A stretch of 49,675 bases of DNA, from the NCBI GenBank assembly GCA_018267545.1, contig JAFDYG010000094.1, positions 1-49,675 on the forward strand. Reading direction: 5' to 3'. Below are positions 12,415 to 17,554 of this stretch, piece after piece (position 1 is the first letter of the stretch; each line of letters starts with the position of its first letter). The DNA is from Bacteroidota bacterium. Lineage in GTDB: Bacteria; Bacteroidota; Bacteroidia; Chitinophagales; Chitinophagaceae. The notes below the pieces were generated by a model, which was given only the letters and a program-made list of their open reading frames with translations, did not search any database and was not told the DNA's origin. The translations under genes and the position numbers were made by a program.

Positions 12415-13133
12415 ATGAAAAATTTAGCCCTTTCCATCGCTACGGCGATCCTTCTCCTTTCTTTGTCCAGTTGTCAGAAACTCCTCGAATATGCCGAATC
12501 TCACGGCTATCCCGCGCCGGTCAAAAGCCTGATCAGGAAAATAAACTACAGCGACAGTGCCCATTATGTTCCGGGCGTTCCCTTTACCGTTGAGACCAAT
12601 AGCTTTACATTTATTTACAATTCGGCCCATGATCCCATTTATGCCATAAGAGAGACAACCGGCACAGGCGTACCGAGCTATATTTTTCGGTATGATGCTT
12701 CCGGCCGGCTGACCGACCTCATCGCCGCCTATGATACGGCCATCACCATGACCAATGTAGAAAGCTGGCATAAATTTACTTATGAGCCACCTATCAATAC
12801 GATGCTCAGCACCGGATGACCCACTACAGCGTGTTTTTCAATCTTTTCAATCCCAGTCTCCCGTCGAGCTTCGACACCGCCTATTCGTATGACGTACATG
12901 GCAATACGGTCGGTATCGGGCATGACAACAAGGTCAATTTTAACCGTACCAGCAGGGTCTTGCAGTTCATTAATCAGGACTATAGCGTCAATAACCCTGC
13001 TGCAGTCTACACCTACAATAAAAACGGCTTGCCCACCACTGTGAAGTCATTGCCCGGCATACCGATCTTTATCGTACCTAACGAATCGCCCGCCCATCTT
13101 TCAGGCGCCACGCTGACGTATACTAACTATTGA
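12415..13133 (+). pseudogene. Frameshifted lipoprotein with YD-repeat-like segments
   Basis: Two frames appear to encode one protein. Frame A (12415-12819) starts with a lipoprotein signal (MKNLALSIATAILLLSLSSC) and continues through IFRYDASGRLTDLIAAYD to WHKFTY. It then reads a short unconserved tail to a TGA at 12817. Frame B is open from 12786, right after a TGA, and at once gives Y-Q-Y-D-A-Q-H-R-M-T-H-Y, then YSYDVHGNTVG and YTYNKNGLP. These are the same Y-D-x-x-G/H-x-x style segments as in frame A. Adding one base near 12784-12786 would fuse them into a protein of about 239 residues. It may be a true pseudogene, a recent mutation or a sequencing error. Independent ATGA-coupled genes are less likely. 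Its end overlaps the convergent umuC end by 7 bases. Confidence 0.75.
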
Positions 13134-14410
13134 ACGGTCTTCAGCTCGTCCCACCTGGTGGTATGCCGGCCGGAGCGAAGCTCCTGCCGCATCTTCCAGC
13201 TTTTATTCATCCCTGAAGATCCGAATTTTACGCTATCGTCGCGCATGCTGAAATTGATATTGTCGATCGTATTCATGAGAAACCGATGCTGGTTCTCAGC
13301 GGGTGCGGCGAAGAGATTGCCCTGGATAGAGTCGTCTGGGACCAGTCCGCTCAGCATGACCCCGGCTTTCTTGTAGGTCCGTCCATTCTCGAAAAGATGA
13401 TCTACCAGCTCGACAGCGGGCTTGATCAATTCGTGGGTCAAAGAGGTGGGCCGGGGTAGGGAAGTATGGCTGCTGACGCTGGGGCCATGGCGAAAGCTGG
13501 TGGTATACTCCAATTCCTTCGGGACGATAAAGACGCTAACGACACCTGCGGCGCTTTGCTGACGCCGCAGCTTCTCGGCCGCCCGGGAGATATAGGTGGC
13601 AACGGCTTCTTTTAATTCGTCTACGGCAGTGACGGGCCGCCCGAACATCCGGGTGGTGGCGATCATCTTTTTATTGACCAGTTCCTCCTCCATCACAATG
13701 GCGGGGATGCCCTTCAATTCCCTGATCAGCCGGACGCCGACCACTCCGCCCATATTGGTATGGGCCCATTCTTCGGGCATACGGCTCAGCTCCCAGGCGC
13801 TGGTGATGCCCCAGTTGATCAGCTTGGAGGCATAGGCCCGCCCGACTCCCCAGAGGTCGTCCACCCGGGTCCGGCGTAGGGCTGCGTCGATCGTCTCTTC
13901 TGTCGCCAGCACGGTGATGCAGCCCGTGGCCTGCTTGTCCTTCTTGGCGATACGGTTCGCCATCTTGGCCAGCGTCTTCGTGGGGGCTACGCCGATAGAA
14001 ACCGAGATCCCGGTCCACTGCTCCACCGTCTGCTTGACCTGGCGGGCAAAAGCATCGAGCTGGTCGATAGGGATATCATCCAGCTCCAAAAAGGCTTCAT
14101 CCACCGAATACACTTCGACCTTGTCCCTGTCTCCCATCAGGGTGCGCAGGGTATCCATCACCCGCCAGCTCATGTCTCCATACAGGTGGTAGTTCGAAGA
14201 AAAGACGGCGACGCCGTACTTTTCGATGATGTGCCGCGACTGGAAATAGGGGGCTGCCATCCCTACGCCCAGCTTGCGGGCCTCATCGCTGCGCGAGATG
14301 ATACAGCCATCGTTATTGCTGAGGACCGCAACGGGCTGGTTCCAGAGATCGGGCCGGAACAGCCGCTCGCAGCTGCAATAAAAACTGTTACAATCGACGA
14401 TCGCCTTCAT
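13127..14410 (-). CDS. umuC: Y-family DNA polymerase V catalytic subunit (UmuC)
   Basis: A 427-residue translesion polymerase of the UmuC type, which copies damaged DNA with low fidelity. Visible motifs are DCNSFYCSCERLF with the first catalytic Asp, NNDGCIISRS, the catalytic SVDEAFLEL (Asp-Glu), and GISVSIGVAPTKTLAKMANR. Thumb and little-finger regions follow. The C-terminal KSWKMRQELRSGRHTTRWDE is the DUF4113 tail typical of UmuC. Length is as expected. The ATG overlaps the umuD stop by four bases, so synthesis is coupled. All polymerase catalytic residues that I can see are intact, in contrast to its UmuD partner. Confidence 0.96.
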   Translation of the reverse strand: MKAIVDCNSFYCSCERLFRPDLWNQPVAVLSNNDGCIISRSDEARKLGVGMAAPYFQSRHIIEKYGVAVFSSNYHLYGDMSWRVMDTLRTLMGDRDKVEVYSVDEAFLELDDIPIDQLDAFARQVKQTVEQWTGISVSIGVAPTKTLAKMANRIAKKDKQATGCITVLATEETIDAALRRTRVDDLWGVGRAYASKLINWGITSAWELSRMPEEWAHTNMGGVVGVRLIRELKGIPAIVMEEELVNKKMIATTRMFGRPVTAVDELKEAVATYISRAAEKLRRQQSAAGVVSVFIVPKELEYTTSFRHGPSVSSHTSLPRPTSLTHELIKPAVELVDHLFENGRTYKKAGVMLSGLVPDDSIQGNLFAAPAENQHRFLMNTIDNINFSMRDDSVKFGSSGMNKSWKMRQELRSGRHTTRWDELKTVQ

Positions 14411-14841
14411 AAACTATGGATGACATAGGTGACAACACCCCAGATCGAAAACTCCGCGCCGGAAAGGTCCACATCGATCGGAGACAGCCGGCTCGTCTCG
14501 GGTACCAGCCGGATCTTATTAAAGGTCTTTTCCAGTCTTCGGATCAGCATCTCGCCATTGAGCGTTGCAATGATGACCTTTCCGCTGGCTGGCTTGACCG
14601 ACCGGTCCACGATTACTACGTCCCCATTGAAGATGCCCGCGCCGATCATCGCATCTCCGCTGACCCGCATAAAGAAAGTCGCTGGCTTATTCCGGACCAG
14701 CTGCTCGTTGAGGTCGACGCCCCTTTCCATATAATCGTCCGCCGCCGCGCCAAAGCCGGTTGCGTTGGCCGTGGGCACGTCCCATTGCGTAAAACGCTTG
14801 GTGCCCTTATAGCTCATTCCAAAAAATTGTTCGACTTCCAT
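14407..14841 (-). CDS. umuD: UmuD-like protein with degenerate Ser-Lys dyad
   Basis: A 144-residue UmuD/LexA S24-peptidase-fold protein without a DNA-binding domain. It is co-transcribed with umuC through an ATGA overlap. In E. coli UmuD, RecA-stimulated self-cleavage at Cys24-Gly25 uses Ser60 (SGDSM) and Lys97 (FTVKK). Here the motif reads VSGDAMIGAG, so the serine position is Ala64 (codon at 14650-14652). The lysine position in GEMLIRRL is Arg101 (codons 14536-14541). The cleavage site aligns to Thr28-Gly29. The fold, the DYMERGVDLNEQL segment and the gene length are otherwise intact. It is predicted to be unable to cleave itself; it may act uncleaved, be cleaved in trans, or be non-functional. 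Confidence 0.93.
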   Translation of the reverse strand: MEVEQFFGMSYKGTKRFTQWDVPTANATGFGAAADDYMERGVDLNEQLVRNKPATFFMRVSGDAMIGAGIFNGDVVIVDRSVKPASGKVIIATLNGEMLIRRLEKTFNKIRLVPETSRLSPIDVDLSGAEFSIWGVVTYVIHSL

Positions 14842-14883: not shown

Positions 14884-14900
14884 TACTAATTTCTTTAGTA
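14884..14900. promoter_or_regulatory. Inverted repeat, candidate operator in umuD / 2H divergent promoter
   Basis: TACTAA-N5-TTAGTA is a perfect 6-bp inverted repeat with a 5-base spacer (17 bases in all). It lies 43 bases upstream of umuD and 38 bases upstream of the 2H gene. The dimension and position suit a LexA-like or HTH dimer site controlling both directions, but no known SOS-box consensus was matched. Confidence 0.45.
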
Positions 14901-14937: not shown

Positions 14938-15630
14938 ATGGAAACCGGGTTAGTAAAAACAACAAATTTTCCACCTTCCGCGCCTGGCCGGTTCGCCGCC
15001 GGTGCGGCCTTCCAGCCCTCCGCGGCCGATTATTCCTCGCAGGCCTATCGACCCTCCGCGGCCGATCTGCGCCGGGCGGAGTACCTGCTGGTCATCTATC
15101 CATATGGAGAGGTGAAAGACAAGCTCTTAGAAGAACAGGAGCAATTTTCTTCCGACTATGGCCTGAAAACCATAGCCCGCAACAAACCCCACATCACCGT
15201 CGCCGCTTTCCAGGCGGGCGAGCCGATGGAGGACACCCTGATCCGCTGGATCCAGCGCATCTGCAACCGCCACCGGAGCTTCGACGTGTCGCTGAATAAT
15301 TATAGCGGTTTTCCGCCGCATACCATCTACCTACGCGTGCAAGACCCCCAGCCCTTCCGGGAACTGATGCAGCAGCTGCGGGCGATCGACGATTTTATCC
15401 GTTCTTCGGGCTGCCCGCCCGTAAACCTGATTACCCGCCCCTATCTCAGCATCGCCGGAGGGCTCACCGAGCAGGTCTACAACAAAGCTATGCCCGAATA
15501 TTCGCGCCGGACCTTTCACGATACCTTTCATGTCGAAGAGCTGGTTCTTTTAAAGAGAAACCATTCCTTCGACGCCTGTAAGACCGTCAACATCTTCCGG
15601 CTGTTACCCGATACCGCTCAATCCCTTTAG
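14938..15630 (+). CDS. 2H-phosphoesterase / 2'-5' RNA ligase superfamily protein (paralogue 1)
   Basis: A 230-residue protein of the 2H phosphoesterase superfamily (LigT, CPDase and AKAP7-like), which act on 2',3'-cyclic or 2'-5' phosphates of nucleic acids. An N-terminal extension of about 45 residues has a repeated PSAAD motif (QPSAADY, RPSAADL). The first catalytic motif is intact (KPHITVAAF, His85/Thr87). The second reads R-P-Y-L-S-I, so its His is Tyr169 (TAT instead of CAT) while Ser171 remains. Hydrolytic function is therefore doubtful; RNA or nucleotide binding may persist. It starts at ATG 14938, divergent from umuDC. A similar gene follows after 142 bases with two hairpins between. 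Confidence 0.85.
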   Translation: METGLVKTTNFPPSAPGRFAAGAAFQPSAADYSSQAYRPSAADLRRAEYLLVIYPYGEVKDKLLEEQEQFSSDYGLKTIARNKPHITVAAFQAGEPMEDTLIRWIQRICNRHRSFDVSLNNYSGFPPHTIYLRVQDPQPFRELMQQLRAIDDFIRSSGCPPVNLITRPYLSIAGGLTEQVYNKAMPEYSRRTFHDTFHVEELVLLKRNHSFDACKTVNIFRLLPDTAQSL

Positions 15631-15649
15631 GAGGCCCTGGAAGGGCCTC
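15631..15649 (+). terminator. GC-rich hairpin directly after stop codon
   Basis: GAGGCCCT (15631-15638), GGA loop, AGGGCCTC (15642-15649): a perfect 8-bp stem that starts at the base after the TAG of paralogue 1. There is no T-tract, so it may be a Rho-independent-like, RNA-stability or processing element rather than a standard terminator. Confidence 0.55.
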
Positions 15650-15675
15650 GTCCAAAGGACAGACATTAGCGCTTT

Positions 15676-15714
15676 GCAGGAGATGCGCTAATTTTTGAAA
15701 AGCGCATCTCCTGC
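15676..15714. repeat. Perfect 14-bp inverted repeat between 2H paralogues
   Basis: GCAGGAGATGCGCT (15676-15689) and AGCGCATCTCCTGC (15701-15714) are exact inverted copies with an 11-base loop. Without a T-tract it is not a classic terminator. It could be an attenuator or a 5' leader hairpin of paralogue 2, whose ATG is 58 bases away. Confidence 0.7.
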
Positions 15715-15772
15715 ATATTATCCTGAACTAATAGACCGGCTGATGCTTTTGTCACTCTTTAAAAATGAAACT

Positions 15773-16411
15773 ATGCAACAAGCGATCAAACCCGTTGCTG
15801 CTGTCCTGAATGAAAATTATAAGAAACAGCTGGCGACCAACGAATATATGCTGGTGCTGAATCCGCGGGAGGAGCTCTGCAACCGCATCCAGCGCGTCAA
15901 GAAAGAATTCTATGACGCTTACCAGGCGCCCACCGCCATCGGCGGCAAGCCGCACCTGACCCTGGTGCGGTTCACCCAGCTGGACCTGATGGAAGAGCGG
16001 ATCGTACAGCGGCTGCGGACCATTTCGATGGGCTTTTGTCCCTTCAAGGTAGAGCTAAAAGACTTTGGCTGCTTCCCCTCGCACACCATCTTTATCAATG
16101 TCACCAGCAAGCTGCCCATTCGCGGACTGATCACCGAGATCAAGGACGTACAACGATTGATGCGGCTGGACAAGGACCACAAACCCCATTTTATCGACGA
16201 ACCGCACCTGCCCATCGCTCGCAAGCTCCTGCCCTGGCAGTACGAGAAGGGCTGGCTGGAATACAGCAACAAGTCGTTCACCGGCAGATTTGTCGCCGAC
16301 TCCATGCTGCTGCTTCGCCGCCGCGCCGGTGACCGCGCCTGGCAGATTGCGGAACGGCTCGTATTCCAGAACCTTCCCGTATCGACGCGTCAGGGGGACT
16401 TATTTGGCTAG
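15773..16411 (+). CDS. 2H-phosphoesterase / 2'-5' RNA ligase superfamily protein (paralogue 2)
   Basis: A 212-residue paralogue of the preceding gene, sharing the YMLVLNP/YLLVIYP start strand, the F-P-x-H-T-I centre and the general length. The first motif is intact (KPHLTLVRF, His61/Thr63). The second keeps its histidine but not the Thr/Ser (EPHLPIAR, His145, Pro147). Each paralogue thus has one damaged motif, at different positions. ATG 15773 is preferred; an in-frame ATG at 15743 and a TTG at 15695 lie within or just after the inverted repeat. It is followed by a hairpin directly after the stop and a radical SAM gene. It probably acts on RNA or nucleotides. Confidence 0.82.
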   Translation: MQQAIKPVAAVLNENYKKQLATNEYMLVLNPREELCNRIQRVKKEFYDAYQAPTAIGGKPHLTLVRFTQLDLMEERIVQRLRTISMGFCPFKVELKDFGCFPSHTIFINVTSKLPIRGLITEIKDVQRLMRLDKDHKPHFIDEPHLPIARKLLPWQYEKGWLEYSNKSFTGRFVADSMLLLRRRAGDRAWQIAERLVFQNLPVSTRQGDLFG

Positions 16412-16412
16412 G

Positions 16413-16426
16413 CGCGGGAACCCGCG
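16413..16426 (+). terminator. Short GC hairpin directly after stop codon
   Basis: CGCGGG-AA-CCCGCG, a perfect 6-bp palindromic stem two bases after the TAG of 2H paralogue 2, without a T-tract. It repeats the stop-proximal hairpin seen after paralogue 1. Confidence 0.4.
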
Positions 16427-16465
16427 ACGAAACCCCGCCCGCCTCATCTACTAAATCGAATTACC

Positions 16466-17554
16466 ATGTCTCAAGAACAAGAACAGGAAGGGATCCCCAT
16501 GCCCCTCCAATACCTCAAAGGCCGCGGCGCCCAATTCAATCCCAAGAACCGCTTCCTTAAAAACGAAATCGTCAAAGAGCACGTCGAAGGAATCGACGAC
16601 TGGGTCGAACCCAATATCGAAACCCAATACCTGGAAGACGTCGCCAAAAGCATCGTCAATAAGGTCGACAGCCCCGACGTCGGCATGTGGTACAGCATGA
16701 ACCCCTACCAGGGCTGCGAGCACGGCTGCACCTATTGCTATGCCCGTAACGCCCACGAATACTGGGGGTATAGCGCCGGTCTCGACTTCGAACGAAAGAT
16801 CATCGTCAAGAAGAATGCGCCCGAGCTGCTCCGCAAGTTCCTCATGAACCCCAAGTGGGAATGCCTGCCGATCTCCCTAAGCGGCAATACCGATTGCTAT
16901 CAGCCCGCCGAAAAAAAGTTCGGCATCACCCGCAAGCTCCTCGAAGTTTGCGCCGAATTCAACCAGCCCGTCGGGATGATCACCAAGAATGCGGGAATCC
17001 TCCGGGATAAAGATCTCCTCGGACAAATGGGTAAGAAGCGTCTCGTATCCGTCCTCGTATCCATCACCTCGCTCGACGAAGACCTGAGAAGGCTGATGGA
17101 ACCCCGTACCACCACGGCTAAACAACGGCTGAAAACCATCAAGGAGCTCGGCGAAGCAGGCGTACGCGTCGGCGTGATGCTGGGCCCCATGATCCCAGGC
17201 CTCAACGAGCACGAGATGCAGCGCATCATGAAGGCCGCAGCCGATAGCGGCGCCACCTTCTCGGCCTATACCTTTATCCGGCTCAACGGCGCCATCAAGC
17301 ACATCTTCCACGACTGGCTGTATAAGAGCTTCCCCGACCGGGCCGACAAGGTATGGCACTTTATCGAAGCCAGCCACAACGGCAAGGTCAACGACAGCCG
17401 CTGGGGGGTGCGTATGCGCGGAGAAGGTAATTACGCCCAGCTCGTAGCCCAGCAGTACGCGCGCTATACCCAGAAATACGGTCTCAACGCAGAACGCTGG
17501 GAGCTCGACTGCTCGCTGTTCAGAAGACCGGGCCAGCAAATGAATTTGTTTTAA
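16466..17554 (+). CDS. PA0069-family radical SAM protein (SplB-like)
   Basis: A 362-residue radical SAM protein of the PA0069/Rv2578c group, distantly related to spore photoproduct lyase SplB. The [4Fe-4S]-SAM motif is CEHGCTYC (Cys84, Cys88, Cys91). It follows MNPYQGCEHG and precedes YCYARNAHEYWGY, both typical of this group. Later blocks are ISLSGNTDCYQPAEKKFGIT and VMLGPMIPGLNEHE. Substrate and reaction are unproven. Family relation to a DNA-photolesion lyase and the umuDC neighbourhood suggest nucleic-acid repair, which is an inference. The start at ATG 16466 gives the usual length. An aminotransferase follows after 20 bases. Confidence 0.9.
   Translation: MSQEQEQEGIPMPLQYLKGRGAQFNPKNRFLKNEIVKEHVEGIDDWVEPNIETQYLEDVAKSIVNKVDSPDVGMWYSMNPYQGCEHGCTYCYARNAHEYWGYSAGLDFERKIIVKKNAPELLRKFLMNPKWECLPISLSGNTDCYQPAEKKFGITRKLLEVCAEFNQPVGMITKNAGILRDKDLLGQMGKKRLVSVLVSITSLDEDLRRLMEPRTTTAKQRLKTIKELGEAGVRVGVMLGPMIPGLNEHEMQRIMKAAADSGATFSAYTFIRLNGAIKHIFHDWLYKSFPDRADKVWHFIEASHNGKVNDSRWGVRMRGEGNYAQLVAQQYARYTQKYGLNAERWELDCSLFRRPGQQMNLF

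Follow-up and report, generated by a model that had tools for sequence, protein, structure and literature searches.

The window (the whole stretch of 49,675 nucleotides that was analysed, from a bacterium of the Chitinophagaceae) carries a umuD-like gene on the minus strand (14407..14841) with a product of 144 amino acids. This protein matches Pfam Peptidase_S24 (PF00717, 9e-24) and the NCBIfam model for the "autoproteolytic subunit" (PRK10276, NF007621; 128.1 bits, cut-off 110). PF00717 is the sole Pfam domain found in it, and an N-terminal DNA-binding domain of the UmuDAb or LexA type is absent. Next to umuD on the same strand is umuC (13127..14410, 427 amino acids), recognized from gene calls, profile matches and alignment. 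Its start at 14410 overlaps the umuD stop by four nucleotides (ATGA), and at the positions of E. coli D6, D101 and E102 it has D, D, and E. The partner is thus intact and coupled to umuD, as the original prediction had described it. It also carries QGNLF, which we take to resemble the E. coli clamp motif QLNLF. Between umuD and a divergent LigT-like gene stands a predicted SOS operator of the form CTAA-N5-TTAG, CTAATTTCTTTAG (14886..14898, no strand assigned). The divergent genes (14938-17554, plus strand) are two 2'-5' RNA ligase/LigT-like genes and a PA0069-family radical SAM gene. As the SOS box stands between umuD and this cluster, the cluster may be SOS-controlled too. Of the 85 loci with enough flank, at least 64 have such a LigT-like gene running divergently ahead of umuD.

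Both catalytic residues of UmuD are replaced. By reading and alignment, the place of the catalytic Ser60 is taken by Ala64 (GCG, 14650..14652, minus strand) within SGDAM, and that of Lys97 by Arg101 (CGA, 14539..14541, minus strand) within EMLIRRL. The former cleavage site, aligned with E. coli C24-G25, is Thr28-Gly29 (codons at 14755..14760, minus strand). The sequence around it is T-G-F-G-A-A, and Cys/Ala-Gly in an AGFPSP context is absent. The Ser-Lys dyad is therefore missing from the window UmuD as read, and both the dyad replacement and Thr28-Gly29 at the cleavage site, claimed in the original prediction, are confirmed on the minus strand. A dyad formed by other residues was considered and rejected on sequence grounds, since the first 88 core columns hold no clade-specific Ser. 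All 153 distinct window-type sequences have Lys at the column of E. coli position 48, without an accompanying clade-specific nucleophile. Because of S24 peptidase chemistry, it is near certain that window-type UmuD is unable to cleave itself.

The family sample comprises 394 genomes, of which 237 give a match at 1e-10; by a hand count of the listing, the best E-value is below 1e-40 in 195 of them and not in 42. Strongly matching loci (L227-L266) include Flavitalea (89% identical), Niastella, Chitinophaga, Flavihumibacter, Sediminibacterium, Lacibacter, and Limnovirga. Many of the remaining loci bear only a higher-rank title ("Chitinophagaceae", "Chitinophagales", "Bacteroidetes" or "Bacteroidota bacterium"); one is labelled "Sphingobacteriales" and one "uncultured bacterium". 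The family carrying window-type UmuD is taken as Chitinophagaceae. Beyond this family, identity in the best matches drops to about 50% or lower, and most of the alignments start near residue 27 and so leave out the arm.

The catalytic Lys column is Arg in all 153 distinct window-type sequences (the window included) and Lys in none; this set omits identical cores, open reading frames with under 24 residues ahead of the old site or with a site outside the script's pattern, and L141, which has a masked run of N. In the Ser column, 137 have Ala, 15 have Ser, and one has Thr, and the residue preceding the old scissile bond is Thr in 142, Asn in six, Ser in four, and Arg in one. Divergent members outside this set have Ala-Arg (L133, L134, L138, L145, and L208), Cys-Arg (L139) or Ser-Arg (L207), and the sequence of L184 ends before the Lys column. 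Loci L227-L266 are Ala-Arg in 35 cases and Ser-Arg in five. Control loci from other bacteria are Ser-Lys in 38 of 40, with one Ser-Arg (L280) and one Ala-Lys (L302); these two groups are the best 80 of 578 confirmed relatives, an uneven sample. Viral-contig controls, the best 80 of 326 confirmed relatives and likewise uneven, are Ser-Lys in 76, Ala-Arg in three, and Ala-Lys in one. From the canonical reference set the listed Arg-bearing names were removed, so that its 88 Lys of 88 are by selection. Close relatives with both Ser and Lys at these columns, which would speak for a mutation confined to a single genome, were looked for: no window-type relative has Lys.

The replacement appears to be old. 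All six Arg codons are used in the Arg column (153 sequences) and all four Ala codons in the Ala column (137). Synonymous differences are near saturation: among the 973 pairs with a core identity of 80% or more, mean pS is about 0.8. A tree of 174 rows, calculated from few columns after removal of the dyad columns and the cleavage loop, places 92 window-type and seven divergent rows on one branch (SH-aLRT 98); 86 of its 171 inner branches are open. Ser-bearing members are scattered at several places inside this branch, indicating that the residue in the Ser column has changed more than once while the Arg has stayed constant. Horizontal spread was rejected as an explanation: the plasmid, phage, and viral-contig matches listed are at most 49.2% identical, and the dyads were read for 80 viral-contig loci.

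The UmuC partner is kept. In 117 UmuC sequences, D101 and E102 are present in all and D6 in 116, with one gap. umuC starts within 400 nt downstream of window-type umuD in 107 of 152 testable loci. In the other 46 of 153 loci it is farther on the same strand (20), on the opposite strand (two) or absent from the available stretch (24, three of them with a short stretch). When 21 of these 24 genomes were searched, 20 were found to have a UmuC 55-66% identical to that of the window, and G201 gave no UmuC match at 1e-40. The window's own genome has a single UmuC. In L007, L229, and L249 a small gene sits between umuD and umuC, presumably an IS200/REP-type transposase lookalike as judged by eye.

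The SOS operator is also conserved. One CTAA-N5-TTAG in the window is not significant alone, as a match also occurs in 32 of 100 shuffled versions of the window. Upstream of umuD, the pattern is found in 148 of 152 distinct window-type loci, while the reversed pattern is found in none of the 152 and CTAA-N5-TTAG itself in none of 30 canonical genes of other bacteria. Other loci of the family, order, and phylum have it in 35 of 80. The window's own genome holds 23 such sites versus 100 of the reversed pattern. One of these stands 3 nt before the start of a gene on contig C549 (L002) encoding an XRE-S24 regulator with an intact dyad, likely the genome's own non-canonical LexA. CTAA-N5-TTAG is described in PMC8565304 as the operator of a Bacteroidetes non-canonical LexA network, located upstream of umuDC as it is in the window. 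In the parts of that paper dealing with the network, umuDC, recA, and splB are among its genes, and Chitinophagaceae are named among the families with large CTAA-N5-TTAG regulons. The SOS boxes of window-type loci and the XRE-S24 regulator fit this network as described there. The window umuDC is accordingly classed, from its predicted operator, as an SOS-controlled operon with umuC.

What distinguishes window-type UmuD further is its N-terminal arm (residues 1-28; 14758..14841, minus strand), which has the clade motif YxG[ST]Kx[FY]xQxx[VI]xTA[ND]AT, continuing with GF. In 154 sequences, the Tyr is present in 146, the Gly in 150, the Lys in 148, and the Gln in 147, and the Ala two positions before the Gly of the old site in all 154. 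When pairs of similar core identity are compared, the arm is more conserved in the window clade. For pairs whose cores are 60-69% identical, the identity of the arms is 0.53 in the window clade versus 0.26 without gaps or 0.30 with gaps in canonical-type UmuD, and at 50-59% it is 0.49 versus 0.21-0.26. The contrast fades at 80-89% (0.65 versus 0.60, 31 canonical pairs), and at 90-99% the values are 0.79 and 0.91 (only five canonical pairs). These data include L141, and the 50 pairs at 10-19% core identity are an artefact of it. By pN/pS, the arm of the window clade is conserved at the protein level and evolves about twice as fast as the core (0.25 versus 0.135, rough values because pS is near saturation).

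At the old site, FGAA in place of FPSP is made up of clade-specific columns (AGFPSP to ATGFGAA). A27 and G29 are invariant in alignment A3, and T28 and F30 nearly so. This strong conservation of A27-T28-G29-F30 is unexplained by a free arm. In AlphaFold2 (AF2) models, the core of the window UmuD fits E. coli UmuD' (target TM 0.91 to 1ay9), with block-mean pLDDT of 85-96 from residue 51 in a first run and 84-93 from residue 61 in a second. Docking of the arm as a pseudosubstrate was examined in both runs; residues 1-40 have block-mean pLDDT of 39-54 in each, and their placement is not confident. This low confidence may be due only to a shallow alignment or a missing partner.

Another form of UmuD without the Lys is found in the same family. 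The comparison set consists of 76 distinct UmuDs with an FPSP-like motif from Chitinophagaceae, its order, and its phylum. Nine of these, all from Chitinophagaceae (L151, L155, L165, L169, L176, L177, L179, L182, and L185), have their first Met right at the cleavage point and are thus made as UmuD'. L182 (from G242) belongs to the same genus as the window. In each of the nine, Lys is replaced by Arg. In UmuDs of FPSP type with an arm, Lys is kept in 63 of 66 (the exceptions are L163, L175, and L187). By the script rule a tenth sequence, L054, is also armless; it has Lys, and a search for a usual start codon found none. For the association between arm and Lys, the Fisher value is uncorrected for relatedness. 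Lys/Arg needs at least eight changes on the tree, so more than one event is likely. It seems that the catalytic dyad is kept only while an arm needs removal. The window clade is the odd case, in which the dyad is lost and the arm is both retained and conserved. Among IMG/VR contigs, L351, L354, and L379 have Ala-Arg columns yet a canonical AGFPSP site and an arm, apparently an independent loss of the dyad.

A second UmuD was not found in the window's own genome, where the other S24-type matches are only the dyad-bearing XRE-S24 regulator and a signal-peptidase-like protein; the search for another UmuD, LexA or S24 peptidase suggested with the original prediction thus gave these two proteins alone. 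At least two UmuD matches (cut-off 1e-10) occur in 28 of the 237 matching family genomes. In a sample of second copies, one from each of 15 carrier genomes and excluding third copies in two of them and the second copies of the remaining genomes, nine are Ser-Lys and six are Lys-less and start at the cleavage point. A canonical UmuD acting in trans is possible in a minority of genomes only. The suggestion that the protein is cleaved in trans is therefore less supported than the rest of the original prediction: it agrees with the nine Ser-Lys second copies, and the single UmuD of the window's own genome and the small share of genomes with two speak against it.

The sequences show one clade that has lost the Lys, the scissile motif and, in nearly all members, the Ser, and that keeps the SOS operator, umuC, and a conserved arm. 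These features probably reflect a Pol V subunit that is never cut, occurs throughout Chitinophagaceae, is controlled by transcription, and has a repurposed arm. DNA damage would cause the non-canonical LexA (XRE-S24) to derepress the umuDC operon, and full-length UmuD would pair directly with UmuC. The arm would no longer lock on the globular domain awaiting a cut and would be a permanent interaction element instead; the protein would behave like UmuD' yet keep its arm. The polymerase would be controlled via transcription, and perhaps turnover, rather than by RecA-triggered cleavage of UmuD. That the arm does not lock is suggested by its low AF2 confidence, and activity of the uncut UmuD is likewise our inference. 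The conserved arm would then need a partner. Engineered E. coli proteins offer precedents of both kinds. UmuD 3A escapes cleavage because its arms fail to bind the globular domain, and it is considered a UmuD' mimic in the relevant part of PMC5342242, where UV mutagenesis is also given as greatly reduced with UmuD 8 S60A. With UmuD K97A, UmuC is kept at the membrane and mutagenesis is strongly inhibited, according to a passage of PMC4552617. The K97A and S60A precedents count against the main reading, as do the fading of the arm contrast in close pairs, the faster change of the arm, the conservation of A27-T28-G29-F30, and the 24 of 153 loci without umuC in the available stretch. The 3A-like precedent is favoured over K97A because other UmuDs of the family have adopted the pre-cut form and because the SOS box and the catalytic residues of UmuC are kept.

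The K97A protein is also the model for an opposite reading, in which UmuD is a permanent brake that either keeps UmuC non-mutagenic or in a checkpoint state or directs it towards accurate bypass, with the arm binding the replicase or clamp. The conserved arm would suit this reading, as would the report, in part of PMC5342242, that arm length governs binding of the alpha subunit in E. coli. It is nevertheless unlikely, as the catalytic columns of UmuC and the SOS box of the operon are kept, and the family UmuDs that start at the cleavage point suggest selection for a UmuD'-like state. UmuD' might still arise if A-T-G-F were cut by a canonical UmuD copy, the XRE-S24 LexA-like regulator or a housekeeping protease. 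The near-invariant residues at the old site, the dyad-bearing XRE-S24 protein of the window's own genome, and the Ser-Lys second copies agree with such processing, which we consider improbable given that the FPSP part of the motif is lost and that second UmuDs are few. Furthermore, S24 cleavage is mostly intramolecular.

It is more improbable still that the arm and the S24 shell serve another partner as an adaptor independent of UmuC, with the link to Pol V loosening. The 46 loci without umuC starting within 400 nt downstream and the frequent divergent LigT-like gene point that way; the 107 loci that keep umuC within this distance, and the UmuC found in 20 of the 21 searched genomes lacking a linked one, point back to Pol V. 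Recent mutation, sequencing error, and chance are excluded by Arg in 153 of 153, varied codons, and near-saturated pS, and decay by purifying selection, the single clade, and the kept SOS box. Gene decay, or a mutation newly arisen in a single genome, would account for the loss of both catalytic residues and is hardly credible for a family-wide clade. A maintained pseudo-protease, as the original prediction proposed in place of decay, is borne out by these features and the intact UmuC.

The proposed never-cut subunit differs from the known systems in several respects. E. coli UmuD (PRK10276, NF007621; 1umu, 1ay9, 8gmt) shares with it the S24 fold, the umuC operon, SOS control, and an arm of about 24-28 residues. 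Unlike E. coli UmuD, the window UmuD lacks the Ser-Lys dyad and has T-G for C-G, FGAA for FPSP, and a conserved arm. UmuDs of the family that are born cleaved likewise dispense with cleavage, as does phage HumD, which we take to be UmuD'-like; the nine family proteins have also lost the Lys. These proteins are without an arm, whereas the window protein keeps and conserves one of 28 residues. Against the HumD model, the window UmuD scores 72.2 bits (cut-off 120). The engineered E. coli variants S60A and K97A (blocked) and 3A (UmuD' mimic) are also full-length and uncleavable, as parts of PMC5342242 and PMC4552617 describe, but window-type UmuD is natural and family-wide, and its dyad, cleavage loop, and arm have changed together. 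PMC8565304 examines the dyad of the regulators and, in the parts covering it, is silent on the dyad of Bacteroidetes UmuD. Among the open-licence papers listed, no title or abstract opening reports a dyad-less UmuD in Chitinophagaceae. The fold, the operon, and SOS control are already known; what appears to be new is that the cleavage switch is lost and a conserved arm is retained.

In textbooks, cleavage of UmuD is the post-translational step that gates mutagenic Pol V. With a natural, ancient UmuD under an SOS operator and without the cutting machinery, it becomes directly testable whether Pol V needs cleavage or just removal of the arm, and what an uncut arm can do. The automatic annotation "autoproteolytic subunit", whose model cut-off the window protein passes, is probably wrong for the window clade. 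The armless genes would be a second, parallel route, with the protease step discarded repeatedly in Chitinophagaceae. For the family as a whole, there is an even chance that the Pol V switch has been rewired lineage-wide, from a removable arm to a fixed conserved motif, and that Pol V would be activated without UmuD cleavage.
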